Below, piece by piece: positions 10,669-30,929 of a stretch of DNA of 58,535 bases. The notes below the pieces were generated by a model, which was not told the origin of the DNA, did not search any database, and saw only the letters and a program-made list of their open reading frames with translations. A program made the position numbers and the translations under genes. Position 1 is the first letter of the stretch. Every line of letters begins with the position of its first letter. The stretch covers positions 1-58,535 of the forward strand of contig NZ_SMLB01000037.1 in NCBI RefSeq assembly GCF_004349105.1, read 5' to 3'. The DNA is from Jiangella aurantiaca (lineage in GTDB: Bacteria > Actinomycetota > Actinomycetes > Jiangellales > Jiangellaceae).

Positions 10669-11514
10669 TCAGGTCCGGGCGTCGTCGCCGGCCACGAGGA
10701 CCTTCACGCCGGCCTCCTCGAGCGCCCGGCCAAGCGCCGGCGGCGGGACGGCGTCGGTGATGAGGTAGTCGGCCCGGCTCAGCTCGGCCACCCGGGCGAA
10801 CAGCCGCCGGCCGAACTTGGAGGAGTCGGCCAGCACCGCGACCCGTGAGGCGCGGTCCATCATCTCGGCCATCATCGTGGCCTCGCCGAGGTTGCTGGTC
10901 GTGTAGCCGCTGCCGGCGTCGACCGCGCCGACGGCCACCAGCGCGAGGTCGCACTGGATCTGCAGGTCGTCACCGGGTGACATGCGCTGGAAGCTGACCG
11001 GGCCGACAGTGGCCTGCGCGCTGAACCTGACCTGGCCGCCGAACACGTAGAGGTCGCGGACGACCTCCGGGGAGATCTCCGCCGGCAGCTGCAGGCTGTT
11101 CGTCGCGATGGTGAGGTCGCGCTGGTCGCGCAGGTGCCGCACGACGGCGAGCGTGGTGGTGCCGGCGTTGATGATGACCGCGGCGCCGTCGGTGATCAGC
11201 CCGGCGGCCACCGCGCCGATCTGCTCCTTCGCCGACGCCTGCATGCGCATGCGCACGTCGAGGCCGGTGTCGGGCCGCGGGATGGCGGACGGGCTGACGG
11301 CGCCGCCGTGCGTGCGGATGAGCACGCCCTCGGAGTCGAGCTGGTCGAGGTCGCGCCGGATGGTATCGAGGGAGACGTCGAAGCGCTCGGCCAGCTGCGC
11401 GACCGTGACCTGCCCGACCTCGGACACGTAGGACGCCAGCGCGGCCTTGCGCCCGGCGGGCAGTCGGCGGGGCTGGCCGGTCGCGTCGGCTCCGGTGGGT
11501 GTCTGCGCGGCCAT
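10669..11514 (-). CDS. DeoR-family transcriptional regulator of the adjacent sugar operon
   Basis: 281 residues. The N-terminal DeoR helix-turn-helix is clear: VSEVGQVTVAQLAERFDVSL followed by DTIRRDLDQLDSEGVLIRTH and GGA. The C-terminal DeoR sensor domain (isomerase-like fold) contains INAGTTTLAVVRHL and VADSSKFGRRLF, which bind sugar phosphates in this family. It is divergent from the binding-protein gene, so it probably represses that operon and itself. Three copies of GCGAGAT lie in the shared intergenic region. The inducer is probably a phosphorylated intermediate of the pathway encoded downstream. Confidence 0.92.
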   Translation of the reverse strand: MAAQTPTGADATGQPRRLPAGRKAALASYVSEVGQVTVAQLAERFDVSLDTIRRDLDQLDSEGVLIRTHGGAVSPSAIPRPDTGLDVRMRMQASAKEQIGAVAAGLITDGAAVIINAGTTTLAVVRHLRDQRDLTIATNSLQLPAEISPEVVRDLYVFGGQVRFSAQATVGPVSFQRMSPGDDLQIQCDLALVAVGAVDAGSGYTTSNLGEATMMAEMMDRASRVAVLADSSKFGRRLFARVAELSRADYLITDAVPPPALGRALEEAGVKVLVAGDDART

Positions 11515-11700: not shown

Positions 11701-12987
11701 ATGAGCAACGGCGCCATCGCGAGACGGCGGGTCTTCGCCGTCCTCGGTGCATCGGCCATCGCGCTGACCGCAGCGTGCGGTGGCGGTGGCGACTCCGGCG
11801 ACGACGAGGCCGGCGGCGAGGTCACCCTGGAGTTCAGCCAGTGGTGGGAGCCCGAGCTGCCCGACGGGTCGCTGCGCGCGCTCATGGACCGGTTCGAGGA
11901 GGAGAACCCCGGCATCCGGGTCGAGCTGCTCAGCGGGCCGTACGCGTCGACGAAGGAGCAGGTCGTCGCCGGCGCCGCCGCCGGCACCATGTCCGACGTC
12001 GTCGGCCTGGACGGCGCCTGGGTGAGCGACTTCGTCGACCAGGGCTCGATCGCCAGTCTTACCGATCTCATGGACGAGGCCGGCTACGACGACAGCGCGC
12101 TGGCCTCGCAGGTCCAACTCGAGGGCGCGACGTACATGATCCCGGTGGTCAACTTCGTCTACCCGCTCTTCACCAACAACGACCTGCTCGCGCAGGCCGG
12201 CATCACCGCCCCGCCCACCAACCGCACCGAGTTCCAGGCCGCCGCCACGGCGCTGTCCGGGCTGGGCGACAACGTCAGCGGCTGGGCGCTCCCGCTCTCG
12301 TTGGAGACGCCGAACGGGGTCCAGAACGACGTCATGTCGTGGGTCTGGGCCTCCGGTGGCAGCATGCTCGCCGACGGCCAGCCCGACCTCACCAACGACG
12401 ACGTCAAGAGCGCGGTCGAGTACGTCGAGGGGCTGTGGGACGACGGCGCCATCGCGCCGGGCGCGTTCACGATGAAGGAGCAGGACAAGGTCGAGGAGTT
12501 CACCAACGGCCGGGTCGGCATGGTGATCAGCTCGCTCGCGCACGTCAACACGATCCGCGAGGCGAACCCGGACCTGGACTTCAGCATCTCCGCCATCCCG
12601 GCCGAGGACTCCTACACCGGCGAGCGGGGCATCCCCTACGCGTCGTGGGGCATCGGCGTCGCCGAGAACAGCGAGCACAAGGAGGAGGCCTGGAAGCTGG
12701 TCGAGTTCCTGCTCTCCGAGGACGTCAACGCGGAGCTGTCGACGCTGGCCAACGCGTTCCCCGGCAACACCGCGTCGGTGCCTGACTTCGTTGAGGGCGA
12801 CGAGCTGTTCACCGCGGCCTTCGACATCTACCAGAGCGGCTACCCGGCCAACGAGTTCACCGGCCTCCCGGTCGCCGAGGAGCTGATGCGCATGTTCGGC
12901 GAGGAGCTGCAGCGGACGCTGGATGGCGATCAGTCGGTCGACGACGCCCTCGAGACGGCGCAGAGCCGCTGGCAAGAAGAGTTCTGA
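11701..12987 (+). CDS. Family 1 sugar-binding lipoprotein
   Basis: 428-residue extracytoplasmic sugar receptor for the permeases that follow. The signal peptide ends in TAAC (Cys 26 lipobox), followed by a Gly/Asp-rich linker. The mature part has the SBP_bac_1 pattern: LEFSQWWEPEL near the N-terminus, FEEENPGIRVELL, a central FTNNDLLAQAGITAPPTNRTEF and GIPYASWGIGVAENSEHKEEAWKLV in three short blocks. It starts at an ATG after GAAGGAGAG. It is the first gene of a DeoR-controlled operon. The ligand is not readable; the downstream aldolase and kinase suggest a hexose or hexose derivative. Confidence 0.92.
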   Translation: MSNGAIARRRVFAVLGASAIALTAACGGGGDSGDDEAGGEVTLEFSQWWEPELPDGSLRALMDRFEEENPGIRVELLSGPYASTKEQVVAGAAAGTMSDVVGLDGAWVSDFVDQGSIASLTDLMDEAGYDDSALASQVQLEGATYMIPVVNFVYPLFTNNDLLAQAGITAPPTNRTEFQAAATALSGLGDNVSGWALPLSLETPNGVQNDVMSWVWASGGSMLADGQPDLTNDDVKSAVEYVEGLWDDGAIAPGAFTMKEQDKVEEFTNGRVGMVISSLAHVNTIREANPDLDFSISAIPAEDSYTGERGIPYASWGIGVAENSEHKEEAWKLVEFLLSEDVNAELSTLANAFPGNTASVPDFVEGDELFTAAFDIYQSGYPANEFTGLPVAEELMRMFGEELQRTLDGDQSVDDALETAQSRWQEEF

Positions 12988-13058
12988 CGCCACGTTCCAG
13001 GTCACGCCGGACCTGACGCCCCCGGTCCGGCGTGGCCGCACCCCAGGAGACGGTTGCC

Positions 13059-14009
13059 TTGTCCCAGCTGACCCTTCGACCGGCCGAGACCGGCGACGGC
13101 GGGCGCGACGCCCGCCGTCCCGGCCCTCGGCCCGGGCGCCTGCGGCGGTCGCTGACGCCCTATCTGTACCTGCTGCCGACCGTGCTGCTGCTGGTCGCGC
13201 TGATGGTGCTGCCGATCGTCATGGTCATCGGCTACTCGCTGATGGACAACGTCATCACCACCAGGAACTCGGAGTCCGTCGGGCTGGACAACTACGTCGA
13301 GGTCGTCACGGACCCGGTGTTCCACACGGCGATCCGCAACACGCTGTACTTCACCGGCGTCAGCGTGCTCGCCCACCTCGTCCTGGGGCTGGCGTTCGCG
13401 CTGCTGCTCAACAGTGCGTTCGTCGGACGCTGGGCCAAGGCGCTGTTCCGGATGATCTACGTGCTGCCGTGGCTGTTCACGATCGCCATCGTGGCCGTGC
13501 TCTGGCGGCTGCTGCTCAACCCCAACGGCGTCGTGAACTACCTCCTGGACGTCGCCGGCTTCATCGACGGCAACGTCGAGTGGCTGGCCGACCCCGACAC
13601 CGCCCTGCATGCCGTCACGTTCATCAACATCTGGTGCGGCTACCCGTTCTTCATGATCAGCCTGCTGGCCGGGCTGCAAGGTATCCCGAAGGACCTCTAC
13701 GAGGCGGCCCGGGTCGACGGCGCCAGTGCGGTGAAGCAGTTCTGGCACGTCACCATTCCGCAGCTCAAGCCGATCATCATCAGCATGGCGCTGCTCGACT
13801 TCATCTGGACGACGCAGCAGTTCGCGCTGATCTGGATGACCACCGGCGGCGGGCCGATCAACGTCACCGAGATGCTCAGCACCTTCACCTACAAGCTGGC
13901 ATTCAGCAAGTACGAGTTCTCGATGGCCTCCACCAGCGCGGTCATCATCCTCGTCCTGTCGATGGTGCTGGCCTTCTTCTACGTCAGGCATCAGAGAGTG
14001 CGGGATTGA
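13059..14009 (+). CDS. Sugar ABC transporter permease (MalF/UgpA type)
   Basis: About 316 residues with six main transmembrane helices. The cytoplasmic coupling motif is EAARVDGASAVKQFWHVTIPQLKP. I chose the TTG start at 13059 because AGGAG lies 9 bases upstream; a GTG at 13032 would add nine residues. It forms the import channel with the next gene product. No ATPase gene lies in this operon, so a shared MsiK-like ATPase encoded elsewhere is likely, as is common in actinomycete sugar importers. Confidence 0.92.
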   Translation: MSQLTLRPAETGDGGRDARRPGPRPGRLRRSLTPYLYLLPTVLLLVALMVLPIVMVIGYSLMDNVITTRNSESVGLDNYVEVVTDPVFHTAIRNTLYFTGVSVLAHLVLGLAFALLLNSAFVGRWAKALFRMIYVLPWLFTIAIVAVLWRLLLNPNGVVNYLLDVAGFIDGNVEWLADPDTALHAVTFINIWCGYPFFMISLLAGLQGIPKDLYEAARVDGASAVKQFWHVTIPQLKPIIISMALLDFIWTTQQFALIWMTTGGGPINVTEMLSTFTYKLAFSKYEFSMASTSAVIILVLSMVLAFFYVRHQRVRD

Positions 14010-14010
14010 C

Positions 14011-14856
14011 ATGGACCTGCCCAACGTCCGCCGCCGCGGCCTCAAGCGGACCGGCGTCTACGCCGGCCTCGTGCTCGGCGCGCTGTTCGCCGGGCTGCCG
14101 GTGCTCTGGATGGCGCTGAGCTCGTTCAAGTCGAACAGCGAGATCTTCGAGTACCCGCCGCGGCTCATCACCGACAACTTCTCGCTGGACGCGTACACGA
14201 CGATCCTCACCGATCCGGCCAAGCTGCGCTTCTTCCTCAACAGCTACGTCATCGGCCTGTCGGTCGTGGTGCTGACGCTGGTGGTGGCGATCTTCGCCGC
14301 GTACGCGTTCAGCCGGTACGACTTCCCGCTCAAGCGGGTGCTCAACGTCGTCGTCATCAGCGTGCAGGCGGTGCCGCCGATCACCCTGCTGATCCCCTAT
14401 TTCGGGCTCATGGTGACGCTCGGCCTCTACAACACCTATCCGGGGCTGATCCTCACCTATCTGGTGTTCACGCTGCCCTACGCGATCATCATGATGACCG
14501 GCTATTTCAACACGCTGCCGAAGGAACTGGACGAGGCCGTCAAGGTCGACGGCGCGGGGCCGCTGACGGCGTTGTGGCGCATTCTCGTGCCGATCTCAGT
14601 GCCCGGCCTGGTGTCGGTGGGGCTCTACACCTTCATGATCGCGTGGAACGAGTTCCTGTTCGCGTTGACGCTGACCCGCACCGAGGACATGCGCACCGTT
14701 CCCATCGGCATCCAGCTGCTCATGGGTCAGCACTCGTACGAGTGGAACGAGATGATGGCGATGAGCGTCCTCGGCTGCGTTCCCATCCTGCTGCTCTTCC
14801 TCTTCTTCCAACGGTTCTTCATCGGAGGTATGAGTGCCGGCGCCGTGAAGATCTGA
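14011..14856 (+). CDS. Sugar ABC transporter permease (MalG/UgpE type)
   Basis: 281 residues, six predicted helices, coupling motif LDEAVKVDGAGPLTALWRIL and the C-terminal block MTVAWNEF-like sequence (MIAWNEFLFALTLT), all typical of the second carbohydrate permease. The ATG is one base past the stop of the previous gene, so the two are coupled. It partners the preceding permease in uptake of the same sugar. Confidence 0.92.
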   Translation: MDLPNVRRRGLKRTGVYAGLVLGALFAGLPVLWMALSSFKSNSEIFEYPPRLITDNFSLDAYTTILTDPAKLRFFLNSYVIGLSVVVLTLVVAIFAAYAFSRYDFPLKRVLNVVVISVQAVPPITLLIPYFGLMVTLGLYNTYPGLILTYLVFTLPYAIIMMTGYFNTLPKELDEAVKVDGAGPLTALWRILVPISVPGLVSVGLYTFMIAWNEFLFALTLTRTEDMRTVPIGIQLLMGQHSYEWNEMMAMSVLGCVPILLLFLFFQRFFIGGMSAGAVKI

Positions 14857-14911
14857 CCCCCTTTCCGACGAGAACGCACACCACCGAGAACGACCCGAGG
14901 AGAACTTGAAC

Positions 14912-15772
14912 ATGCTGGTGAATGGCCGAGACCTGCTCGCCGTGGCGCACGACAACGACTTCGCCGTGCCCGCGTTCAACATCAGTGACTACGCGATGTT
15001 CAACGGCATCGTCGAGATCAGCGAGGAGAAGCAGGCGCCGCTCATCGTCGCGATCCACCCGGACGAGCTGCGGCACACCGGCGTCGACATCATGGAATCG
15101 ATCACCGCCCGGGCACACCGGTCGACCGTCCCGGTGGCGATCCACTTCGACCACGGCACCACGTACGAGCAGATCCTGCTGGCGATCCGGACCGGGTTCA
15201 CGTCGGTGATGATCGACGGCTCGACGCTGCCCTTCGAGTTGAACATCGCCATCACCAAGCGGGCTGTCGAGGCCGCGCACGCGCTCGGCATCTCGGTGGA
15301 GGGCGAGCTGGGCACGATCGGCAAGACCGACGCCGAGGCCGAGGACGGCACCGACTCCATCATCTACACGGACCCCGACGACGCCGTCACGTTCGTCGCC
15401 GAGACCGGCGTGGACTCGCTGGCAGTCGCGATCGGCACCAGCCACGGCATCTACCCGGCGCACATGAAGCCCGAGCTCAAGCTGGACCTGCTCCAGGACA
15501 TCGCCGCGAAGATCGACGTGCCGCTGGTGCTGCACGGCGGCTCCGGCAATCCCGACGACGAAATCGCGCAGTCGGTCAAGCTGGGCATCAACAAGATCAA
15601 CATCTCGTCGGACATCAAGGTCGCCTACCACGAGAAGCTGCGCGAGGTGCTGGCGGACACCGCACTGCGCGAGCCGAACACGATCCAGCCGCCGGCCATC
15701 GACGCGATGAAGGTGGTCGCCGCGCAGAAGATCGACCTGTTCGACGCCGCCGGCAAGGCCGCGCTCTACTGA
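14912..15772 (+). CDS. Class II ketose-bisphosphate aldolase (GatY/KbaY/Fba family)
   Basis: 286 residues. It cleaves a ketose 1,6-bisphosphate (fructose or tagatose type) to dihydroxyacetone phosphate and glyceraldehyde 3-phosphate. The zinc/catalytic motif HFDHGTTYE has Asp 80 and His 81. Further family blocks are SVEGELGTIG, VDSLAVAIGTSHGIY and LVLHGGSG, followed by GINKINISSDIK. The pattern is closer to tagatose-bisphosphate aldolases (GatY/KbaY) than to housekeeping Fba. The ATG at 14912 follows AGGAG at 9 bases. It lies between the permeases and the kinase-isomerase fusion, which implies it degrades the imported sugar after phosphorylation. Confidence 0.9.
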   Translation: MLVNGRDLLAVAHDNDFAVPAFNISDYAMFNGIVEISEEKQAPLIVAIHPDELRHTGVDIMESITARAHRSTVPVAIHFDHGTTYEQILLAIRTGFTSVMIDGSTLPFELNIAITKRAVEAAHALGISVEGELGTIGKTDAEAEDGTDSIIYTDPDDAVTFVAETGVDSLAVAIGTSHGIYPAHMKPELKLDLLQDIAAKIDVPLVLHGGSGNPDDEIAQSVKLGINKINISSDIKVAYHEKLREVLADTALREPNTIQPPAIDAMKVVAAQKIDLFDAAGKAALY

Positions 15773-15783
15773 GGCCACTGTTC

Positions 15784-17979
15784 ATGACCGAACGGCTGGT
15801 GCTCGGCCTGGGCGGGACCGTCGACTACGAGATCGCCTGGGACGCCGCCACCATCGAGCGGCTGGTCGTCGAGCACGACATCCGCGCCGCGGAGCTGTCC
15901 ACCGCGATCCCGGTGGACAGCGAGCGGTCGCTGCTGGTCACGCTGCTGGCGTTCGTCCGCGATGGTACCGGCGGGGAGCGCTTCGTCGCCTCGTCCGACA
16001 TCGTCACCGGCCTGGCCGCCCGGTTCGACACCCGGATCACGCTGGGCGGGACCTGCGTGCGTGCCGCGCTGGGGCTGGCGGCGGTCGGCATCGGCAGCAC
16101 GGTGCACCTGGTCAGCATCGACGACCACGTGCGCCGACTGCTGCCGCCGTCCGTCGACTACCTGTGCAGCGCCGACGCCGACTCGCTCGACCCGCACCTG
16201 ATCGTCCAGTACCCGGCCGGCTCCCGGGTCCGGGCCGGCGACCTGGATCTGCACGCCCCGCACGCGAACCGGCTCATCTACGTGCACGACCCGCCGAACC
16301 GGGAGCTGCGGCTGCACCCGGGCCTCGGCGACGCGCTGAGCCGGGCCGACGTGTTCCTGATCTCCGGGCTCAACTCGATCCAGGACCCGGCGGTGCTGGA
16401 CGACCGGCTGGGCGAGCTGCGCGCGGCGACCGAGCGGCTGCCGGCCGGCGCGCTGACGTTCTACGAGGATGCCGGCTACCACGTGACGGAGATCGCGGCG
16501 GCCGCCCGGGCCGGCGTGCTGGAGCTGGCCGACGTGTACTCGATGAACGAGGACGAGCTGGGCGAGCGCCTCGGGCATGCCGTCGACCTGCTCGATCCGT
16601 CCGCGGTGGTGGACGCGCTGCGGGCGCTCACGGGGGTCGTGCCCGCACCGGTCGTCGTCGTGCACACGAGGTACTGGTCGGTAGCGCTCGGCGCCGACGC
16701 GAGCCGCTTCGAGGGCGCGCTGCGCGGCGGAATCACGCTGGCCAGCGCCCGCTACCTGGCCGGCGACGTGCTGACGGCGGCCGACCACCGTGCGGTCGCG
16801 GCGCACCCGGCGCACCCGGGCGGCGTGGCGGTGGTCGAGGCGGTACGGACGGCGTTCGGCTCGGCGGCCGCCGGGGTGCCGGCGTACGTGCTGGACACGT
16901 CCGCCCCGACCAGCATCGGCCTGGGCGACACGTTCGTCGGCGGCTTCCTCGCCGCGCTGGCCGACCGGGCCGCCGCGTCCGGCGCGCCCGCCGTGCCGGT
17001 GGTGCTGCCGGCCAACCAGCCGGCCGAGCGGTTCTACCGCGGCGGGGCGCGGATCGCCCGGTTCCGAGGCACTCCGCCGGGTGCGGGCCGCGAGCCGGAG
17101 GACTGGGTCGCGTCGACGACGTCGGTGCACGGTCAGGGCGAGGCCGGGCTGACCCGGTTGCCGGACGGCCGGCTGCTGGCCAACGCCGTCGCGGCCGACC
17201 CCGAGTGGTGGCTCGGGCCGAAGCACGTCGCCACGTACGGCGCGGACACCGCGGTGCTGGTCAAGCTGCTCGACGCCGGGGAGCGGCTGCCGGTGCACGT
17301 GCACCCGGACGCCCCGTTCGCCCGCGAGCACTTGCACACCGGCCACGGCAAGACCGAGGCGTGGGTGATGCTGGAGCCGGCCGAGGTCCGGCTGGGCTGG
17401 AGCCGCGACGTGGGCGCCGACGAGCTGGCCGGCTGGGTGGAGCGCCAGGACGCCGACGCGATGCTAGCCGCGATGCACGTCCTGCGGCTGGAGCGCGGCG
17501 ACGCGGTGCTCGTGCCGGCCGGGCAGCCGCACGCCATCGGCGCGGGGGCCTTCCTCGTCGAGCTGCAGGAGCCGGCCGACCTGTCCATCCTGCTGGAGTG
17601 GGACGGCTATGCGATCGACGGTCCCGGCACGGGGCATCTGAGCTTGGGCTATCCGGCGGCGCTCGCCGCGGTCGACCATCGCGGGCTGACCCGGGCCGAG
17701 GCCGATGCGCTCCGGACGGCCGACGCCGGCACCGTCGGCGACCTCCTGCCGGGGGCGGCCGGGTTCTTCCGGGCCGAGCGGTACCGCGGCGACGTCGCGT
17801 GGGACGCCGGTTTCGCCGTCCTGGTGGTCGTGGCCGGCACGGCCGAGCTGGTGACCGGCGGCGGTGCGCGGCTGCCGGTGAGCGCCGGCACCACGGTGCT
17901 GGTGCCGTACGCCGCGGGGCCGGCCCGGCTGGAGCGGGCCGCCGGGCTGGAGGTGCTGCTCTGCCGCCCGCCGGCCTGA
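15784..17979 (+). CDS. Fusion of ADP-dependent-type sugar kinase and type I phosphomannose isomerase
   Basis: 731 residues, two enzymes in one chain. Residues about 1-430 resemble the ADP-dependent glucokinase/phosphofructokinase family: GGTCVRAALGLAAVGIG, LISGLNSIQD, MNEDEL (N255-x2-E258, metal/phosphate motif), VVVHTRYWSVALG and the anion-hole motif GLGDTF with catalytic Asp 382. Residues about 435-731 resemble class I mannose-6-phosphate isomerase: HVHPDAPF (His 505, His 507), HGKTEAWVMLE (Glu 525) and PHAIGAGAFLVELQEP (His 583), the zinc ligands and active site. All key residues of both halves are present and the reading frame is unbroken. It is the last gene of the sugar operon. The predicted role is phosphorylation of the imported sugar and aldose-ketose isomerisation ahead of the aldolase. 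Confidence 0.85.
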   Translation: MTERLVLGLGGTVDYEIAWDAATIERLVVEHDIRAAELSTAIPVDSERSLLVTLLAFVRDGTGGERFVASSDIVTGLAARFDTRITLGGTCVRAALGLAAVGIGSTVHLVSIDDHVRRLLPPSVDYLCSADADSLDPHLIVQYPAGSRVRAGDLDLHAPHANRLIYVHDPPNRELRLHPGLGDALSRADVFLISGLNSIQDPAVLDDRLGELRAATERLPAGALTFYEDAGYHVTEIAAAARAGVLELADVYSMNEDELGERLGHAVDLLDPSAVVDALRALTGVVPAPVVVVHTRYWSVALGADASRFEGALRGGITLASARYLAGDVLTAADHRAVAAHPAHPGGVAVVEAVRTAFGSAAAGVPAYVLDTSAPTSIGLGDTFVGGFLAALADRAAASGAPAVPVVLPANQPAERFYRGGARIARFRGTPPGAGREPEDWVASTTSVHGQGEAGLTRLPDGRLLANAVAADPEWWLGPKHVATYGADTAVLVKLLDAGERLPVHVHPDAPFAREHLHTGHGKTEAWVMLEPAEVRLGWSRDVGADELAGWVERQDADAMLAAMHVLRLERGDAVLVPAGQPHAIGAGAFLVELQEPADLSILLEWDGYAIDGPGTGHLSLGYPAALAAVDHRGLTRAEADALRTADAGTVGDLLPGAAGFFRAERYRGDVAWDAGFAVLVVVAGTAELVTGGGARLPVSAGTTVLVPYAAGPARLERAAGLEVLLCRPPA

Positions 17980-18833: not shown

Positions 18834-18872
18834 GAAACGTTATTGACACCCTTCGCGGCACCCTGGCAAGGT
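18834..18872 (+). promoter_or_regulatory. Promoter with adjoining LacI-like half-palindrome
   Basis: GAAACGTTAT (18834-18843) runs directly into a consensus -35 box TTGACA (18843-18848). An 18-base spacer and a -10-like CAAGGT (18867-18872) follow. Protein bound at AACGTT would block RNA polymerase. The same GAAACGTT core appears as a perfect palindrome upstream of the lyase gene (24580-24589). Confidence 0.55.
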
Positions 18873-18936
18873 GAGCGTCACACGTCCGATCTTTCGCCCC
18901 ATGCGTGAGCCAGGCACTGCACCGGAGGAAGCAACG

Positions 18937-20220
18937 ATGCTCTCGACTCGACCCGGCCGGCGTCGTGCGGCCATGGCGGCAGTGGCCGCGCTCCTGACCG
19001 TCACGGCCGCCTGCGGCGGCGACAGCACCAGCGGCGGCGAGGACGAGGACGTCACGCTGCACTTCACCTGGTGGGGCAACGCCGACCGCGCGGAGCTGAC
19101 CGAGCAGGCCATCGACCTGTTCGAGGAGGAGCACCCGGGCATCACCATCGAGACGTCGTTCTCGGAGTTCGACGCCTACTGGGAGCGGATGGCCACGCAG
19201 ATCGCCGGCGGCAGCGCACCGGACATCCTGCAGATGGACTACCGCTACGTGCGGGAGTACGCCGAGCGCAACGTCCTGCGCGAGTTCGGCGACGACGACG
19301 TCGACACCTCGGCCATGGCGCCGGGCCTGCTCAGCGCCGGCGAGATCGACGGCGTCAGCTACGCCATCCCGATGAGCCAGAACACCCAGGCACTGCTCTA
19401 CGACCCGGCGGCCTGGGCGGCGGCCGGCGAGCAGGCCCCCGGACCGGACTGGACGTGGGCCGACCTCGAGGCGGGCGGCCGGGTGGTCGCCGAGGCCACC
19501 GGCATCAGCGCCATCAGCGACTTCGGCCAGATCGAGGACTGGTTCGAGGTGTGGCTGCGGCAACGCGGCAAGACCCTCTACACCGACGACGGCGAGCTCG
19601 GCTACACCGCCGAGGACGTCGCTGAGTACTGGACGTTCACCAACGGGCTGCGCGAGGCCGGCATCGTCACGCCGGCCGACGAGACCGCCACGATGGACGG
19701 CTCCCAGGCCAACTCCCCGCTGGCCAAGCAGACCAGCGCGGCGGAGTTCAACTACGACAGCGGCCTGACGGCGGAGTCGTGGGAGATCTACGGACGCGAG
19801 CTCGCCCTGGCGCCGTTCCCGTCCGACAGCGGCGAGCTCGGCCAGTACGCCAAGCCGTCCATGCTCATCTGCATCTCGCAGCGCTCCGAGCACCCAGAGG
19901 AGGCGGCGCAGTTCATCGACTTCCTGCTCAACGACCCGGAAGTCGGCGAGCTGCTCGGTACGTCGCGCGGCATGCCCGCCAACGCCGACATCCGGGAGGC
20001 CGTCGGTGGGGCTCTCACCGGACCGCCGCAGCTGGCCTTCGAGTTCGAGCAGGCCGTCCTGCCCGAGCTCGCCGACGCACCGCCGCCGCCACCGCGCGGC
20101 GCCGGCTCGGTCAAGGCCGCGTTCCAGCGGATCTACGACGACGTCATCTTCGGTTCGACGACGCCCGAGGAGGCCGCGGAGCGGTTCATGAGCGAGGCCG
20201 AGCAGGCCCTGGCGCAATGA
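18937..20220 (+). CDS. Family 1 oligosaccharide-binding lipoprotein (probable rhamnogalacturonan oligomer receptor)
   Basis: 427 residues with a lipoprotein signal ending TAAC (Cys 26). The mature sequence has HFTWWGNADRAELTEQAIDL, FEEEHPGITIETSFSEFD and ISQRSEHPEEAAQFIDFLLN, typical of family 1 sugar-binding proteins. The ATG at 18937 follows GGAGGAA. It is the first gene of an operon that continues with overlapping permeases and a YesL-like protein. Rhamnogalacturonan oligomers are the inferred ligand, because a PL4 lyase gene lies beside the operon and YesL proteins accompany pectin importers in Bacillus. Confidence 0.9.
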   Translation: MLSTRPGRRRAAMAAVAALLTVTAACGGDSTSGGEDEDVTLHFTWWGNADRAELTEQAIDLFEEEHPGITIETSFSEFDAYWERMATQIAGGSAPDILQMDYRYVREYAERNVLREFGDDDVDTSAMAPGLLSAGEIDGVSYAIPMSQNTQALLYDPAAWAAAGEQAPGPDWTWADLEAGGRVVAEATGISAISDFGQIEDWFEVWLRQRGKTLYTDDGELGYTAEDVAEYWTFTNGLREAGIVTPADETATMDGSQANSPLAKQTSAAEFNYDSGLTAESWEIYGRELALAPFPSDSGELGQYAKPSMLICISQRSEHPEEAAQFIDFLLNDPEVGELLGTSRGMPANADIREAVGGALTGPPQLAFEFEQAVLPELADAPPPPPRGAGSVKAAFQRIYDDVIFGSTTPEEAAERFMSEAEQALAQ

Positions 20221-21185
20221 GCGTCGACGTCGGCCGGCCGCGGGAAGCCCCGGCGGCCGGCCCACCGGCGGGTCGGCAGCGACCCCGGCGCCGGCAGCCG
20301 TACGGCGAGCGCGCCGGCTTCGGCTACCTGTTCCTGAGCCCATGGGTGGCCGGTGCGCTGCTGCTGACCGTCGGTCCGATGGCGTACTCGCTGTACCTGT
20401 CGTTCACCGAGTACGACCTGTTCACCGCGCCCGAGTGGATCGGCCTGGGCAACTACCGGCGGATGTTCACCGAGGACGACCGGTTCCTCACCTCGGTCTG
20501 GGTCACGGTGAAGTACGTCGTCATCTCCACGCCGCTCAAGCTGGCCGCCGCCCTCGCGGTGGCCTTGCTGCTGAACCGGGCCAGCCGCGCGCAGAGCTTC
20601 TACCGCGCCGCGTTCTATGCGCCCTCGCTGCTCGGCGCCAGCGTCGCGGTCGCCCTGGTGTGGCGGGTGATCTTCGATAACGGCGGCCCGGTCAGCCAGG
20701 TCACGTCGGCCTTCGGCTGGGAGACCGGCGGCTGGACCACCGACCCCCAGTACGCGCTGATGGCCATCGTCCTGCTCGCCGTGTGGCAGTTCGGCGCGCC
20801 TATGGTGATCTTCCTGGCCGGCCTCAAGCAGATCCCGTCGACGCTGTACGACGCGGCCGCCGTCGACGGTGCCGGCTGGTGGCGCACGTTCGTATCGGTG
20901 ACGGTGCCGATGCTCTCACCGGTCATCCTGTTCAACCTGGTGCTCGAGACGATCAACGCGTTCCAGGCGTTCACCTCGGCGTTCATCGTCAGCGGCGGAC
21001 GCGGCGGACCCAGCGACTCCACCCTCTTCTACACGCTCTACCTGTACCAGCGCGGGTTCGTGGACTTCCAGATGGGCTACGCCTCCGCGATGGCCTGGCT
21101 GCTGGTGGTGGCCATCGCGATCGTGACGGCGATCCTGTTCCGGACGTCGCGGTCCTGGGTCTTCTACGCGGGGGACGGCCGATGA
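20217..21185 (+). CDS. ABC transporter permease (MalF-type) of the pectin-oligomer importer
   Basis: 322 residues. A proline/arginine-rich cytoplasmic lead of about 35 residues precedes the first helix (GYLFLSPWVAGALLLT). The coupling motif is YDAAAVDGAGWWRTFVSVTVPML. The ATG overlaps the stop codon of the binding-protein gene (ATGA), which fixes the start; the longer open frame upstream is not coding. It pairs with the next gene product. No ATPase is encoded here, so a shared ATPase is assumed. Confidence 0.92.
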   Translation: MSVDVGRPREAPAAGPPAGRQRPRRRQPYGERAGFGYLFLSPWVAGALLLTVGPMAYSLYLSFTEYDLFTAPEWIGLGNYRRMFTEDDRFLTSVWVTVKYVVISTPLKLAAALAVALLLNRASRAQSFYRAAFYAPSLLGASVAVALVWRVIFDNGGPVSQVTSAFGWETGGWTTDPQYALMAIVLLAVWQFGAPMVIFLAGLKQIPSTLYDAAAVDGAGWWRTFVSVTVPMLSPVILFNLVLETINAFQAFTSAFIVSGGRGGPSDSTLFYTLYLYQRGFVDFQMGYASAMAWLLVVAIAIVTAILFRTSRSWVFYAGDGR

Positions 21186-22066
21186 GCACGACGGCGGTGA
21201 CGGTGCGGCCCGGCCCTCGACGGGAGCGGTCGCGGAGGATGCGGCGGCTGACCTGGCATCTGGTCTGCCTGGCACTGCTGGCGGTGCTCCTCTACCCGGT
21301 GCTGTGGCTGCTGTCGATGTCGTTCAAGCCGGCGAGCGAGATCGTGTCCAGCCTGAGCCTTCTGCCGGAGACGTTCATCCTCAGCAACTACACCGAGGCG
21401 TTGGAGGGCTCCGCCGGGATCGGCGTCTGGCGGTTCTTCGCCAATTCGCTGATCGTCGCCGGACTGTGCGTGGCCGGCAACGTGGTGTCGTGCGCGCTGG
21501 CGGCGTACGCGTTCGCGCGGCTGCGGTTCCCGCTGCGCGGGCCGTTGTTCGCGTTCATGATCGCGACCCTGATGCTGCCGACGCACGTGGTGCTCATCCC
21601 GCAGTACACGATCTTCAACGAGCTGAACATGATCGACACGTTCTGGCCGCTCGTACTGCCGAAGTTCCTGGCGACCGAGGCGTTCTTCGTCTTCCTGATG
21701 GTGCAGTTCATGCGCAACCTGCCGGAGGAGCTGGGCCAGGCCGCGCGCATCGACGGATGCGGGCCGATCCGCGCGTTCCTGCACGTCTTCCTCCCGCTGT
21801 CCAAGCCGGCGCTGGTCACGACCGCCATCTTCAGCTTCATCTGGACCTGGAACGACTTCCTCTCCCAGCTGATCTACCTGAACAGCCCGGAGAACTACAC
21901 GTTGCCGCTGGCGCTGCGCCTGTTCGTCGACCAGACCAGCGAGAGCTCGTACGGACCGATGTTCGCCATGTCGGTGCTCACCCTGCTGCCCGTCGTGCTG
22001 TTCTTCCTCGCGTTCCAGCGGCTGCTGGTCGAGGGCGTCAGCACGTCGGGACTGGGCGGATCGTGA
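21182..22066 (+). CDS. ABC transporter permease (MalG-type) of the pectin-oligomer importer
   Basis: 294 residues, six predicted helices, with MSFKPASEI after helix 1 and the coupling motif LGQAARIDGCGPIRAFLHVFLPL. FSFIWTWNDF is typical of the second carbohydrate permease. The ATGA overlap with the preceding permease indicates strict co-translation, and the next gene overlaps in the same way. Confidence 0.92.
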   Translation: MSTTAVTVRPGPRRERSRRMRRLTWHLVCLALLAVLLYPVLWLLSMSFKPASEIVSSLSLLPETFILSNYTEALEGSAGIGVWRFFANSLIVAGLCVAGNVVSCALAAYAFARLRFPLRGPLFAFMIATLMLPTHVVLIPQYTIFNELNMIDTFWPLVLPKFLATEAFFVFLMVQFMRNLPEELGQAARIDGCGPIRAFLHVFLPLSKPALVTTAIFSFIWTWNDFLSQLIYLNSPENYTLPLALRLFVDQTSESSYGPMFAMSVLTLLPVVLFFLAFQRLLVEGVSTSGLGGS

Positions 22067-22646: not shown

Positions 22647-24554
22647 TCAGTCGAGCTCGAGCCGGATGGCGTCGTAGGCGGCCTGGGTGGCTACCTCGTC
22701 GGGGGCGTTCTCGTTGAGCCGCAGGACGATCTCGTTGCCCTCCGGATGGAGCAGGGCGGCGTCGAACCGGAACTCGCGGCGGAACGTCCGGCCACCGCAC
22801 GAGCTGCGATACGTCGCGCCACGGGTGTCGTCGGGCTGGAAGACCCACACGAACGGCTCGCCGTTGACCCGGATGGTGAGGTTGCTGGGATACGGCGGGA
22901 TGTCGCGGGCGGTGTCCATGGCCCACGCGGCCAGCGCCACCGTCAGCGTGGCCGTCGAGCCGGCGCGCGGCGCGTCGTCGAGGTCGAACACGATCCGCCA
23001 CGGCGCCTGGTCCACGCCGTCGATCCGGTCGAACTGGAGGTAGTTCCAGTCCTCGTCGGTGCTGCGTCCCGCCGTGTAGACGACGCCGTCCGGGAAGTCG
23101 CCGGCGAAGAAGCTCCAGGTGCCGTACTGCCGGTACTCCTGGCCGCGCCGGAACTCCACCGACGTGCGGTTCGGCGTACCGATCTGGAACACCGTCCGGC
23201 CGTTGTGGCGCGGGATCCAGGTCAGCCGGCCGAGGTCGAGGTCGCGGCGGGCGCCGACCACGACCCCGTCGCGGACGTACTCGCCCCAGACGCCGGGCCG
23301 GTAGACCGTCAGCCGGTAGGTGCCGGGGCGCACGTGCCGCAGCGTGAAGGAGCCGCCGGCGTCGGTGTCGGCCCAGTAGTTGTACCCGAGCGCGCTGTCC
23401 TGGACGTCCACGCCGTCGTCGGAGAGCACCGCGACCGCTCCGTCCATCCGGCCCGTGCCGGGTATCCGCACCGTGCCACGGACCGTCGAGCGCCGGCTCG
23501 TCGGCTCCCAGCCGGGCAGCGCCACCCGGTCGTAGAACCCCGCATGCACGTCGACGTCGGCGTAGCGCAGGGCGTCGGCCCGGGCCTGAGCGGGGTCGTT
23601 GCCCTCGCTGAAGTAGACGAAGTACGGGCCGTAGGTCTTCTGCCAGGTATCGCCGGCCGCGACGCGCACCGGCGGCGAACCGTAGTGGGTGGCGTGTGGC
23701 TCGACCAGGAGCACCGGCCGGCTCGTCGTCTGGTGCAGCGTGAGGTCCTGACGCACCGGGCCGCCGCTGAACGCCTCGAGGTTCGGGGTGACGGCCCAGA
23801 TGCCGTGCGTCGCGCCGTACCAGCCGTGCACGACGTGGTCCTTCATGTACGTCGCCCAGTCGTACTTGGTGTAGTAGCGACGCGCGTAGCCCGTCGCCAC
23901 CCCGGCGAGGTCGTGGGTGGCATCCATCACGACGGGACCGGCCGCCAGCTCTTCCGGGGTCGGCTGGAGGGCGGCGTCTGCGCGCCAAGCGTCGCCGATC
24001 GGGTCGTCCTCGACGCTCACGTGCGTGAACAGCTGCGGGTCGAGGTAGAACACGTAGCGGTGCTGGGCGGAGCGGAACCCATGCAGGTCGGCGGTGTGGT
24101 CGAACACCGTCGCGAGGTGGATGCCCGGCTCACCGGCCCGGACGATGTGGTGCCGCTCGAGCCAGAACGGCCCGCCGTCGGTCGGGCTGTACCGGAACGC
24201 GATGTCGACGAAGTCGGCGCCGCGCCGGATCTCGTACCTGTTCTGCGCCGGCGGCAGCGGCCCCGGATCGCCCTCGCGGGAGTTGTTCATGTCGAAGTTG
24301 CCGCGGCCGCCGCCGAGCAGGTCCTGGCCGTTGAACGTGAGCGCGACCAGCCGGCCCGGCGAGGTCTTGCTCACGGTGAGCTGCACCGGCCCGTTGTCGA
24401 CGCTGATGCCGCTCTCGGTCTCCTCGACGGTGAGCGTCGCCGCCGAGCCGGTCGACGCGGACGCCGTCACGGCGCCGGCCACCGCCCCGACGGACGTGCC
24501 GGCGGCAACGGACGTACCGGCGGCGGCTTTGAGGAAGTCCCTGCGCTTGAGCAT
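22647..24554 (-). CDS. Secreted rhamnogalacturonan endolyase (polysaccharide lyase family 4)
   Basis: 635 residues. It cleaves the rhamnogalacturonan I backbone of pectin by beta-elimination outside the cell. The N-terminus has a twin-arginine signal (KRRDFLKAAAG). Residues about 45-330 form the PL4 catalytic domain, with the blocks YTKYDWATYMKDHVVHGWYG, THGIWAV, FSGGPVRQDLTLHQTTSRP and HATHYGSPPV; Lys 230 and His 274 are candidates for the catalytic Lys/His pair. Residues about 350-440 form an Fn3-like domain (GTYRLTVY) and about 450-635 a jelly-roll carbohydrate-binding domain. It is convergent with the uptake operon. A perfect GAAACGTTTC palindrome upstream suggests LacI control. Confidence 0.9.
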   Translation of the reverse strand: MLKRRDFLKAAAGTSVAAGTSVGAVAGAVTASASTGSAATLTVEETESGISVDNGPVQLTVSKTSPGRLVALTFNGQDLLGGGRGNFDMNNSREGDPGPLPPAQNRYEIRRGADFVDIAFRYSPTDGGPFWLERHHIVRAGEPGIHLATVFDHTADLHGFRSAQHRYVFYLDPQLFTHVSVEDDPIGDAWRADAALQPTPEELAAGPVVMDATHDLAGVATGYARRYYTKYDWATYMKDHVVHGWYGATHGIWAVTPNLEAFSGGPVRQDLTLHQTTSRPVLLVEPHATHYGSPPVRVAAGDTWQKTYGPYFVYFSEGNDPAQARADALRYADVDVHAGFYDRVALPGWEPTSRRSTVRGTVRIPGTGRMDGAVAVLSDDGVDVQDSALGYNYWADTDAGGSFTLRHVRPGTYRLTVYRPGVWGEYVRDGVVVGARRDLDLGRLTWIPRHNGRTVFQIGTPNRTSVEFRRGQEYRQYGTWSFFAGDFPDGVVYTAGRSTDEDWNYLQFDRIDGVDQAPWRIVFDLDDAPRAGSTATLTVALAAWAMDTARDIPPYPSNLTIRVNGEPFVWVFQPDDTRGATYRSSCGGRTFRREFRFDAALLHPEGNEIVLRLNENAPDEVATQAAYDAIRLELD

Positions 24555-24579
24555 GCCGTCAACTCCTCGCCGAGCGGGC

Positions 24580-24589
24580 GAAACGTTTC
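24580..24589. promoter_or_regulatory. LacI-type operator GAAACGTTTC upstream of the lyase gene
   Basis: Perfect 10-bp palindrome with the central CG typical of LacI-family sites, about 25 bases upstream of the lyase start codon. Its core recurs at 18834-18841 before the uptake operon, which would put both transcription units under one regulator, probably the LacI protein encoded at 30930-32012. Confidence 0.65.
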
Positions 24590-24713
24590 AAAAGGGTACG
24601 GCGAGCCTAGCGATCGCAGCCCTGCCCGGTCAATGATTCAGCCGATCTTTACCGCCGATTCTCTGGCGAGTGCCCCCTGTTTCAGCGGCTGCCAGGCGAC
24701 ATACATCCGATGA

Positions 24714-26360
24714 CTAGCCGTGGATCTGCACCAGCGAGACTAGGTCCGGGCTGAACCGGACGCCGGTGGAGTCGACGTGTTTGTCGACGACGGTGAACCG
24801 GACGGTGTGCCGGCCGCGGCCCAGCTCGACGCGGCCGACCCGCTCGGTTTTGAACGACCGCACCGACAGCGTCGACGTGTCGATCGGCCCGCCGAGTCGC
24901 GCCCCGTCGACGTCGATCACCACGACACCGCAGTTCGCCTGGTGCCGGAACCGGATGTACAGGTCGTACTCCCCGCCGCGGGTGATCTCGACGGTCGCCT
25001 CGAGGTACTGACCGTAGTCGGTGGCGCGGACCTCGACCACGCTGCCGCCGCTGGCGGCCGGGTCCGCCGTCCGGACCACCGTGAGGCCGGGGGACGTCGC
25101 CGCCGGCAGGTCCTCCACCTCGAAGGAGTGCCGCGTCGCCGGGCCGCGGCGGCCGGTGTCGGCGCCGCCGGTCAGCCAGGCGAGATCGAACGTCGCGAAC
25201 ACCACGTCGCGCGAGAAGCTGGTGGTGACGCCGGGCTGGTGCTCGCGGCCGTAGAGCACGCCGATCCGGCCGTCCGGCAGCGCGACGATGTCGGAGTACG
25301 ACGCCGGCCCCGCGGTGAGCGCGCGGCTGTACGGCCAGCTCATGCCCTCGTCGTAGGAGATGGAGACGGTCATGTTCCGCCGGGTCGGCGAGTCGGTGCG
25401 CGAGAACACGATCCGGCTGTCCTCGCGCTCGCCGAGCCCGGTGAGGCGGATGACGCCGGTGTCGATCGCGTTGACCGGCCGAGCCGAGGCGTCCAGCACC
25501 GGCGGCGACCATGTGGCGCCGCGGTCGGTGCTGACCGAGGCGATCCGCGGGTGGGTGCCGCCGGACGCGTACCGGCCCAGCACCACCAGCGCGCCGTCCG
25601 GCCGCTCGATCAGCCGGGCCTCGTTCAGCGGGTAGGCGCCGTCCAGCGGCACGCCGCCGCCGGCCTGCCAGGTCGCGCCGCCGTCGTCGCTGTGGATGAC
25701 GGTGACGCCGTAGCGGCGTTCGGCGACCGGAAAGGCTATCGCCCTGCGGTGCCAGACCTGCAGCATCAGCCTGCCGTCGGCGAGCTGCAGGCCGTGCCCG
25801 GGGCCGGGCATGTGCAGCGTCTGCCCGTTCGGGTCGCCGTCGAACAGCTGGGTCAGCTCGGTCGGTTCGGACCACGTCCCGCCGTCGTCGTCGCTGGACA
25901 CGACGTACAGGCGGGAGCCGTCCGGCGAGCCGCCGGTGTTGCCCGGGTCGCGGAAGCACTCGGCGTGGAACAGGAAGATTCGGCCGGACGCGCGATCGAC
26001 CAGCGGCGTCGGGTTGACGAACGACTGGACGCCGTCGGAGCGGCGCACGTAGCGCAGCGGCTCCCAGGTGCGGCCGCCGTCGCGGCTGCGGCGGACGGCG
26101 AGGTGGTGCGGGTCGGCGTCGTGCTGGGTGAGGCGAGCCTCGGCGAACGCGAGCACCGAACCGGCCACCGTCGTCGTCAGGCCGAAGACGTGGAAGACGG
26201 CCAGCCCGTCGTCGCCGGCGCGGAACACCAGCGACTCGTGGACGTCGCCGGTCGCCGTCGCGGCCGCGGCGGGCGAGGCCGACGCCAGGGCACCGATGGC
26301 GGCGGTACCGGCCGCGGCGCCGAGGACGAGGGTGCGGCGGCTGATCGGGGTGCTTTCCAC
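24714..26360 (-). CDS. Secreted sialidase-like exo-glycosidase with C-terminal carbohydrate-binding domain
   Basis: 548 residues. Twin-arginine signal SRRTLVLGAAAG. The catalytic part (about 40-400) is a BNR/Asp-box beta-propeller: RSRDGGRTWEP, SSDDDGGTWSEP, HSDDGGATWQ, STDRGATWSPP and SYDEGMSWPY give five repeats. The C-terminal ~135 residues (HSFEVEDLPAA to the end) resemble a CBM6/35-type or similar jelly-roll domain (GGEYDLYIRFRHQ). The GTG start follows AAGGAGAG. It is the last gene of the LacI operon. The family removes sialic acids or related 2-keto-3-deoxy sugars. In a pectin locus, Kdo or DHA from rhamnogalacturonan II is an alternative substrate; this is inference. Confidence 0.82.
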   Translation of the reverse strand: MESTPISRRTLVLGAAAGTAAIGALASASPAAAATATGDVHESLVFRAGDDGLAVFHVFGLTTTVAGSVLAFAEARLTQHDADPHHLAVRRSRDGGRTWEPLRYVRRSDGVQSFVNPTPLVDRASGRIFLFHAECFRDPGNTGGSPDGSRLYVVSSDDDGGTWSEPTELTQLFDGDPNGQTLHMPGPGHGLQLADGRLMLQVWHRRAIAFPVAERRYGVTVIHSDDGGATWQAGGGVPLDGAYPLNEARLIERPDGALVVLGRYASGGTHPRIASVSTDRGATWSPPVLDASARPVNAIDTGVIRLTGLGEREDSRIVFSRTDSPTRRNMTVSISYDEGMSWPYSRALTAGPASYSDIVALPDGRIGVLYGREHQPGVTTSFSRDVVFATFDLAWLTGGADTGRRGPATRHSFEVEDLPAATSPGLTVVRTADPAASGGSVVEVRATDYGQYLEATVEITRGGEYDLYIRFRHQANCGVVVIDVDGARLGGPIDTSTLSVRSFKTERVGRVELGRGRHTVRFTVVDKHVDSTGVRFSPDLVSLVQIHG

Positions 26361-26382
26361 GGCGCTCTCCTTCGAGGCGGGG

Positions 26383-27297
26383 TCAACGGGGCGTGATCAG
26401 GTGCGCGTCGAGCGGCGCGACCAGGTCGAGCAGGGCGGCCCGCTCGTCGGGGGTGACCGGGACGAGCGGCGCGGCGACGTGCGGTGGGCAGAGCCCGCGG
26501 GAGTCGAGGACGGCCTTGACGGCGGGCACGCCCGGCCGGATGGTGTGCAGCGTGATCAGCCGATCGACGGTTTCCTGGGCGGCGTCGGCCTCGGCCAGCC
26601 GGCCGGACCGGAACGCCTCGTACAGCTCGACGCACAGCACCGGCGCGACGTTCGCGATGCCGGGCACGATGCCATCGGTGCCCGCCTCCAGCCCGGCGAC
26701 CAGCTGCGACTCCGACCCCTGGCTGACGCCGACGTCGTCGCGGCGGCGGGCGGCGGCGATCAGCTGGCCGAACAGCGCGAGGTCGCCGGAGCTGTCCTTG
26801 ATGCCGGCGACGTGCGGCATCGCCAGGACCTCGTCGAGGACCGCCGGCGTCATCGGCACGCTGTAGCGCGGGATGTTGTACGCGACGACCGGCACGCCCG
26901 CGCCGGCGAACGCGGCGAAGTGTGCGACCACCTCGTCGTCGCGGTGCCGGTAGTAGATCGGCGGGCTGACGACGACGGCGTCCGGCTCGGCCAGGCGGAC
27001 GGCCGCGGCCCGCTCCAGCGCCTCCGCGGTCCCGGCGGCCGTGACGTTGACCAGCACCGGGCCGCCGTCGGTGAGCTGCCGCCACCGCGCCGCGACGCCG
27101 GCCGCGAACTCCGTCAGCGCCGAGGCCGGCAGCAGCGGGCCCTCGCCGTTGCTGCCGAACAGCATGAGGCTGCGTGCCCCGGCCCGGGCGAGTGCGTCCA
27201 GCAGGCCGTACGCCGCGGCGGCGGACGGCTCGCCCGGCGCGCTCATCGGCGTCACCAGCGGCACCATGACTCCACTGAGGAGAGCGCGACCGTCCAT
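26383..27297 (-). CDS. DapA/NanA-family lyase (2-keto-3-deoxy sugar acid aldolase)
   Basis: 304-residue TIM-barrel aldolase of the dihydrodipicolinate synthase/N-acetylneuraminate lyase family. FGSNGEGPLL carries the substrate-carboxylate loop. Tyr 140 lies in AYNIPRYS, and the Schiff-base Lys 167 lies in HVAGIKDSSGD. It is not a housekeeping DapA, judging by context: it lies between a sialidase-like gene and an oxidoreductase in a LacI operon. It probably splits a 2-keto-3-deoxy acid released from the polymer (sialic acid, Kdo, KDG or L-KDR are all possible). Its ATG shares one base with the stop codon of the upstream gene. Confidence 0.87.
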   Translation of the reverse strand: MDGRALLSGVMVPLVTPMSAPGEPSAAAAYGLLDALARAGARSLMLFGSNGEGPLLPASALTEFAAGVAARWRQLTDGGPVLVNVTAAGTAEALERAAAVRLAEPDAVVVSPPIYYRHRDDEVVAHFAAFAGAGVPVVAYNIPRYSVPMTPAVLDEVLAMPHVAGIKDSSGDLALFGQLIAAARRRDDVGVSQGSESQLVAGLEAGTDGIVPGIANVAPVLCVELYEAFRSGRLAEADAAQETVDRLITLHTIRPGVPAVKAVLDSRGLCPPHVAAPLVPVTPDERAALLDLVAPLDAHLITPR

Positions 27298-30925: not shown

Positions 30926-30929
30926 GCCG

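Follow-up and report, generated by a model that had tools for sequence, protein, structure and literature searches.

A gene joining an ADP-dependent-type sugar kinase to a phosphomannose isomerase-like domain in a conserved actinobacterial sugar operon

Jiangella aurantiaca has a single gene that joins a sugar kinase of the PF04587 family to an isomerase domain resembling type I phosphomannose isomerases. The gene lies in the window, which is the whole stretch of 58,535 nucleotides that was analysed (contig 33 of a 6.6 Mb genome). Its anatomy, homology, fold and residue patterns and the conservation of its operon are established. The fusion is a rare, lineage-specific joining of two genes whose ends, in relatives, mostly overlap by four bases. 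The operon is common to many relatives and probably splits a sugar by steps unlike those of textbook sugar breakdown. The features are listed below; relatives of the operon genes were counted over 80 loci, three of which start inside the operon.

10669..11514, reverse strand: DeoR-family regulator, divergent from the operon (PF00455 E 2.9e-38, PF08220 E 2.1e-17; opposite-strand relative in 75 of 80 loci)
11701..12987, forward strand: ABC sugar-binding protein (PF01547 E 4.1e-34; relative in 76 of 80 loci)
13032..14009, forward strand: ABC permease 1 (PF00528 E 3.9e-17; relative in 78 of 80 loci)
14011..14856, forward strand: ABC permease 2 (PF00528 E 9.3e-19; relative in 79 of 80 loci; 95-98% identical in three congeners)
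14906..15772, forward strand: class II aldolase of PRK08185 type without the C-terminal DPR arginine, a proposed ketose-1-phosphate aldolase (PF01116 E 1.1e-90; relative in 80 of 80 loci)
15784..17979, forward strand: fused kinase-isomerase gene (translation and list of open reading frames)
15784..16959, forward strand: kinase domain (PF04587), residues 1-392, with the catalytic Asp382 at 16927-16929 (Pfam; AlphaFold pLDDT 92.8 for residues 1-402; Foldseek)
16960..17001, forward strand: variable linker, residues 393-406 (14 aligned codons and length differences between the two fused proteins)
17002..17976, forward strand: cupin isomerase domain, residues 407-731, with His505, His507, Lys523, Glu525 and His583 kept and Leu603 at the Arg274 place (PDB profile search, AlphaFold pLDDT 95.0, Foldseek, column counts)

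The fused gene is one open frame of 731 codons and a stop, with an ATG start and zero internal stops, as the initial annotation had reported from the same strand. The residues named there are also where it placed them: N255 and E258, H294 in HTRYW, D382 in GLGD, H505, H507, E525 and H583. The same fusion is present in a congener (G003, locus L027), as a single frame of 736 codons whose product is 79% identical to the window protein. Since a second species carries the fusion, it is not a product of chance, and an assembly error is an unlikely source of it. Comparison of the two fused genes gives a dN of 0.13 and a dS of 0.46 for the kinase half, and 0.14 and 0.48 for the isomerase half, so both halves are under purifying selection. 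The linker between them has a pS of 0.72 and a pN of 0.30 over 14 aligned codons, and its sequence is not conserved. Therefore, with selection on both halves and a short unconserved linker, the fusion appears to have arisen when two translationally coupled genes were joined in the lineage of the host genus. No description of a kinase-isomerase fusion or of the actinobacterial kinase clade was found among the papers listed by searches of the open-access literature, which agrees with the earlier statement that no characterised fusion of this kind was known. The same literature yielded no activity report for any member, a point against the route proposed below.

The fusion is confined to few genomes. 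One scan of named genomes found 134 kinase relatives, of which the best 80 were kept, so this sample leans to close relatives. Together with the window and seven more loci they form a comparison set of 88 loci, which three duplicates reduce to 85 distinct kinases, from Microbacteriaceae, Arthrobacter, Cellulomonadaceae, Jiangellaceae and a few others. The isomerase is fused to the kinase in only two of the 88 loci, the window and L027; a widespread fusion, which would have spoken against the novelty claimed at first, is not seen. It is a separate adjacent gene in 34 loci, 26 of which have it overlapping the kinase by four bases; it lies further downstream in seven (gap of 937 or 985 bases) and on the other strand in two. 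The isomerase is thus present in 45 of the 88 loci and was not found in the other 43, two congeners included; three of these (L090, L122 and L116) run out at the end of their contig or close to it, 1, 27 and 854 bases past the kinase, and the absence is firm for 40. Locus L040 has only 1086 bases past the kinase, and its wider stretch, L138, also has no isomerase. Locus L055 has 8 kb of DNA ahead of its kinase, in which neither importer nor regulator was detected.

In the kinase tree, the fused L027 falls with strong support outside a group of the window and the unfused congeners L028 and L029. The preferred history is one fusion followed by later loss of the isomerase half, so that the fusion was probably lost again in part of the host genus; two separate fusions would cost equally many changes. 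That no isomerase was found in 43 of the 88 loci would be in keeping with an isomerase half that is a decayed or merely structural appendage. This is very unlikely, however, since its metal site and Lys-Glu pair are intact and dN is well under dS between both fused genes. A PF04587 gene occurs in 4 of 12 genomes of the genus (its own and 11 congeners), in 8 of 296 related genomes searched and in 1 of 396 genomes drawn evenly across the phylum, the sole match of the last set being the window's own genome. A plasmid search with the fused protein gave matches in 40 records, none of which covers 80% of the query; among the matches listed, all are to the isomerase half.

The N-terminal half is, by Pfam score and predicted fold, a member of the ADP-dependent sugar kinase family PF04587. 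The PF04587 model (ADP_PFK_GK) matches residues 4-260 of the whole protein with an E-value of 4.1e-20 and 72.3 bits against a cut-off of 27, and residues 1-402 alone score 74.4 bits. The PfkB model PF00294 stays under its cut-off (18.3 against 25.8), so the choice between the two families, which the initial annotation had left to such a search, falls on PF04587. All 34 relatives scanned match PF04587 at E <= 0.001. AlphaFold models were built from alignments of the locus proteins, and both halves are modelled with confidence (pLDDT 92.8 for kinase residues 1-402 and 95.0 for the isomerase). The 22 best Foldseek matches of the kinase model are all ADP-dependent kinases (E 6e-22 to 6e-16), and the next is another sugar kinase (E 6e-9). 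Pfam and predicted fold thus agree with the earlier reading of a PF04587-type kinase in frame with a cupin isomerase like the type I phosphomannose isomerases, with a class II aldolase adjoining. ADP-dependent sugar kinases were first described in archaea and have since been reported in bacteria and animals (PMC7948494).

The same paper gives the residues that tell phosphofructokinases from glucokinases, with K179, N181 and R212 conserved in phosphofructokinase and bifunctional members. These places were mapped through PDB alignments, with the numbering carried over by motif, and counted in the 88 loci; the places of Asp36 (by motif) and Asn32 fall beyond the range of these alignments and were set by eye. 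The E90 place is Glu in 88 of 88 loci. The K179 place, the fructose 6-phosphate lysine, is Asp in 87 and His in one, while the N181 place is His and the R212 place Asp throughout. All 88 loci therefore have the glucokinase signature (Glu at E90 and His at N181), and the phosphofructokinase residues K179, N181 and R212 are absent across the set. R206, the NXXE pair, the H360 place, the catalytic GXGD Asp and Asp36 are each kept in all 88. The NCBIfam equivalog model for ADP-glucokinase, NF010642, gives 37.7 bits against a cut-off of 387. Judged by these positions, the kinase appears to lack the contacts for the phosphate group of fructose 6-phosphate and to have a glucokinase-type pattern, and because of this pattern it probably acts on a free, unphosphorylated sugar. 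The pattern would be equally compatible with phosphorylation of an aldohexose at C6 and of a ketose at C1.

A bifunctional glucokinase/phosphofructokinase could instead phosphorylate the sugar twice, around the isomerase step, to give a bisphosphate for the aldolase. Bifunctional enzymes exist in archaea (PMC7948494), and one here would make the operon self-sufficient. However, the Asp at the K179 place (87 of 88), the His at the N181 place and the Asp at the R212 place (each 88 of 88) make this very unlikely.

The predicted phosphate donor is ADP, which is likely given the contacts and the fold: the contacts to the ribose and the beta-phosphate (H294 and R163) are kept throughout the 88 loci, as are the Glu of the HXE motif and the NXXE pair, and the fold is far nearer to ADP-dependent kinases than to other sugar kinases, all of which score E 6e-9 or worse. 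A kinase that serves the pathway proposed below with ATP or another donor is doubtful but a real possibility. The His of HXE is replaced in all 88 loci (Y 62, F 18, V 5, M 2, L 1), Gly10 stands at the Asn32 place of the window protein (by eye), and 23 of the 34 relatives scanned also match PfkB, with a best E of 5.1e-8; sequence alone cannot tell the choice of donor. The likelihood of a donor other than ADP overlaps with that of the other readings because the question of the donor is separate from that of reaction order.

The C-terminal half has, as modelled, the fold of a type I phosphomannose isomerase. It matches the mannose-6-phosphate isomerase 1qwr with an E-value of 3.4e-9 by single sequence and 6.1e-27 by profile, and the 17 best Foldseek matches of its model are all mannose-6-phosphate isomerases. 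Its metal site comprises His505, His507, Glu525 and His583, plus Lys523. The metal ligands and the Lys-Glu pair are kept in 45 of 45 operon isomerases except for one change, from Gln to His; Lys86 of the phosphomannose isomerases is also retained. The place of Arg274 (Salmonella numbering), whose equivalence was set by eye from sequence spacing, is Leu in the same 45 isomerases, and in a wider, overlapping set of 27 it is Leu in 25, Met in one and Phe in one. We take Arg274 to be an active-site residue, studied as a mutant in PDB 5zvr, from the titles of structures; no paper on its role was found in the literature searched. For the Gln, PMC4718643 gives Gln98, Lys116 and Glu118 as catalytic in the mannose 6-phosphate isomerase of Bacillus amyloliquefaciens, and describes a B. 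subtilis enzyme that has Lys in the position of the Gln and is inactive on mannose 6-phosphate until the Lys is changed to Gln. The TIGR00218 score is 31.5 against a cut-off of 116.2. The catalytic-domain model PF20511 has no match listed for the window protein and matches 10 of the 27 members of the wider set at E <= 0.01. The initial annotation had described a complete type I phosphomannose isomerase and active-site residues kept in both halves. The fold, from profile and Foldseek searches, and most of the residues hold, but the completeness does not, given His505 in place of Gln, Leu603 at the Arg274 place and the missing PF20511 match.

Genes related to the isomerase half also occur without the kinase. 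There are 18 strong standalone relatives, 44-51% identical, and the surroundings of 14 were examined. An FGGY kinase and a DeoC/LacD aldolase adjoin the isomerase in five of the 14 contexts, and an FGGY kinase and a class II aldolase lie about 3-4 kb away in one. FGGY kinases act on free sugars. The recurrence of this isomerase type beside unrelated kinases and aldolases is expected if the isomerase product feeds the kinase and the kinase product feeds the aldolase. Neither an FGGY kinase nor an aldolase is present in the other 8 of the 14, so the isomerase type has other settings too. Neighbours in two standalone contexts resemble gluconate kinase and 6-phosphogluconate dehydrogenase (by eye), and in a congener (L032, 7690-10683) a GH2 glycosidase gene is immediately followed by a phosphomannose isomerase-like gene. 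As a separate observation, the recurrent clusters of the isomerase with FGGY kinase and DeoC/LacD aldolase (L036, L129, L130, L131 and L132) are another sugar route; four of the five include a GFO/IDH/MocA oxidoreductase, and one is in a 1.4 Mb genome.

The aldolase adjoins the kinase in 88 of 88 loci, with 9-150 bases (median 28.5) from the aldolase stop to the kinase start. The window aldolase scores 304.4 bits with PF01116 against a cut-off of 25.5 and 398.5 bits with NF006042, slightly below the cut-off of 405. It passes the model for the ketose-bisphosphate aldolase subfamily, TIGR00167 (258.2 against 215.6), and is below all cut-offs of the FBA and TBP equivalog models. The DPR arginine, which we take to be a ligand of the 6-phosphate (Arg331 of E. 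coli FbaA), is absent in 88 of 88 operon aldolases, where its place is Asn or Leu; no paper on its role was found in the literature searched. In E. coli, the tagatose bisphosphate aldolase GatY has DPR, and YdjI, annotated as a 1-phosphate aldolase, is without the arginine. The host genome has three further PF01116 aldolases, two of which keep DPR and one of which has DPA, and it also encodes a PF00365 phosphofructokinase.

These residue patterns suggest a route in which a free aldose would be converted to the free ketose, the ketose to a ketose 1-phosphate, and this to DHAP and an aldehyde, a proposal with about an even chance of being right. We infer the reaction order, the phosphorylated position and the donor; the order is chosen because it is the simplest reading that uses the patterns of kinase, isomerase and aldolase together. 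The ABC importer would bring in the free sugar, and the cupin isomerase half would convert this aldose, still unphosphorylated, to the ketose. Next, the kinase half would phosphorylate the ketose, probably with ADP, at the hydroxyl beside the keto group, and the class II aldolase would split the product, yielding DHAP and an aldehyde. Where the isomerase is missing, relatives would take up the ketose directly. A DUF4432 protein, perhaps the mutarotase of the route, is added in some relatives. The gene for this protein lies between kinase and isomerase in both gaps tested, at 9191-10189 in L106 and 9200-10120 in L110 (an Actinotalea and a Cellulomonas operon), and no assignment of function for DUF4432 was found in the literature searched. 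The NCBIfam matches of the sugar-binding protein are all far below cut-off. Sulfoquinovose-type and inositol-type routes were considered and dropped; nothing in the operons points to them.

The main alternative in reaction order runs the other way, with an ADP-dependent glucokinase or mannokinase making an aldohexose 6-phosphate, the fused phosphomannose isomerase converting it to fructose 6-phosphate, and the housekeeping phosphofructokinase and aldolase finishing glycolysis. This is unlikely, though it deserves serious weight. The glucokinase signature in 88 of 88 loci equals the pattern of ADP-glucokinases, so that C6 of an aldohexose is allowed equally, and the only two NCBIfam matches of the fused protein are ADP-dependent glucokinase and ManA, both under cut-off. 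The isomerase half folds like the type I phosphomannose isomerases, and one of its standalone relatives has a GH2 glycosidase as a neighbour. This neighbour counts against the proposed free-sugar route, as do the retained Lys-Glu pair and Lys86 of these enzymes, the eight standalone contexts without FGGY kinase or aldolase and the gluconate kinase-like neighbours elsewhere. The TIGR00167 match of the window aldolase and the host paralogue with DPA, which is likewise without the arginine, also count against it. However, all 45 operon isomerases have His instead of the Gln and Leu at the Arg274 place. A canonical ManA, with PF20511 over cut-off, is already encoded elsewhere in the host genome and in all seven other operon-bearing genomes tested (the match in G177 is partial). 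The constant partner of the kinase is the aldolase (88 of 88) and not the isomerase (45 of 88), and this aldolase is without the DPR arginine. These findings, together with the FGGY kinase and aldolase near standalone isomerases in 6 of 14 contexts, support the free-sugar route. The initial annotation had read the order in the chain, kinase then isomerase, and in the operon as suggesting consecutive reactions; the kinase residues, the isomerase substitutions, the missing aldolase arginine and the FGGY contexts argue against chain order as reaction order.

Compared with the known PF04587 kinases (archaeal ADP-glucokinases, ADP-phosphofructokinases and bifunctional enzymes, and animal ADPGK), the window kinase shares the Pfam score, fold, GXGD, NXXE, beta-phosphate Arg, Glu90 and Asp36 (by motif). 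It differs in being about 400 residues long and 15-20% identical to solved members, in having neither the His of HXE nor Asn32, in lying in a bacterial sugar operon and in being fused to an isomerase in two species. Of the four metal ligands in type I phosphomannose isomerases (B. subtilis ManA 1qwr, A. fulgidus 1zx5 and Salmonella ManA), the isomerase half keeps three, along with the Lys-Glu pair, Lys86 and the fold, but it has His for the Gln metal ligand and Leu at the Arg274 place, and scores below curated cut-offs. The label "phosphomannose isomerase" for the C-terminal half may therefore be wrong. The E. coli YdjH-YdjI system, with the regulator YdjF, has the same kinase-aldolase operon logic, and the aldolase is without the DPR arginine in both. 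YdjH, however, is a PfkB-type kinase, the transporter and dehydrogenase are different, and no isomerase is annotated in the E. coli stretch. The L-fucose and L-rhamnose routes use a mutarotase, an isomerase, a kinase and an aldolase to yield DHAP and an aldehyde; the proposed route would have the same logic but draw its kinase and isomerase from different families. The actinobacterial kinases form a coherent clade, share a fixed operon, are paired with an aldolase and have residues that speak against fructose 6-phosphate; they could thereby extend the known roles of the PF04587 family. The operon offers a pathway open to direct test, and the fusion is a useful handle on it because isomerase and kinase are tied to one pathway.

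A second sugar ABC importer is encoded in the window at 18871-22066, between the kinase operon and the genes for BNR-repeat and DHDPS-family proteins; it was not found there in the compared stretches of three congeners, in which the operon is followed directly by the BNR gene. The reverse strand at 22647-27297 encodes, in a row, a rhamnogalacturonan lyase-like PL4 protein, a BNR-repeat (sialidase-like) protein and a DHDPS-family protein. Further along, at 28907-31078 on the same strand, is an MGH1-like glycoside hydrolase (PF22422 E 4.4e-37).
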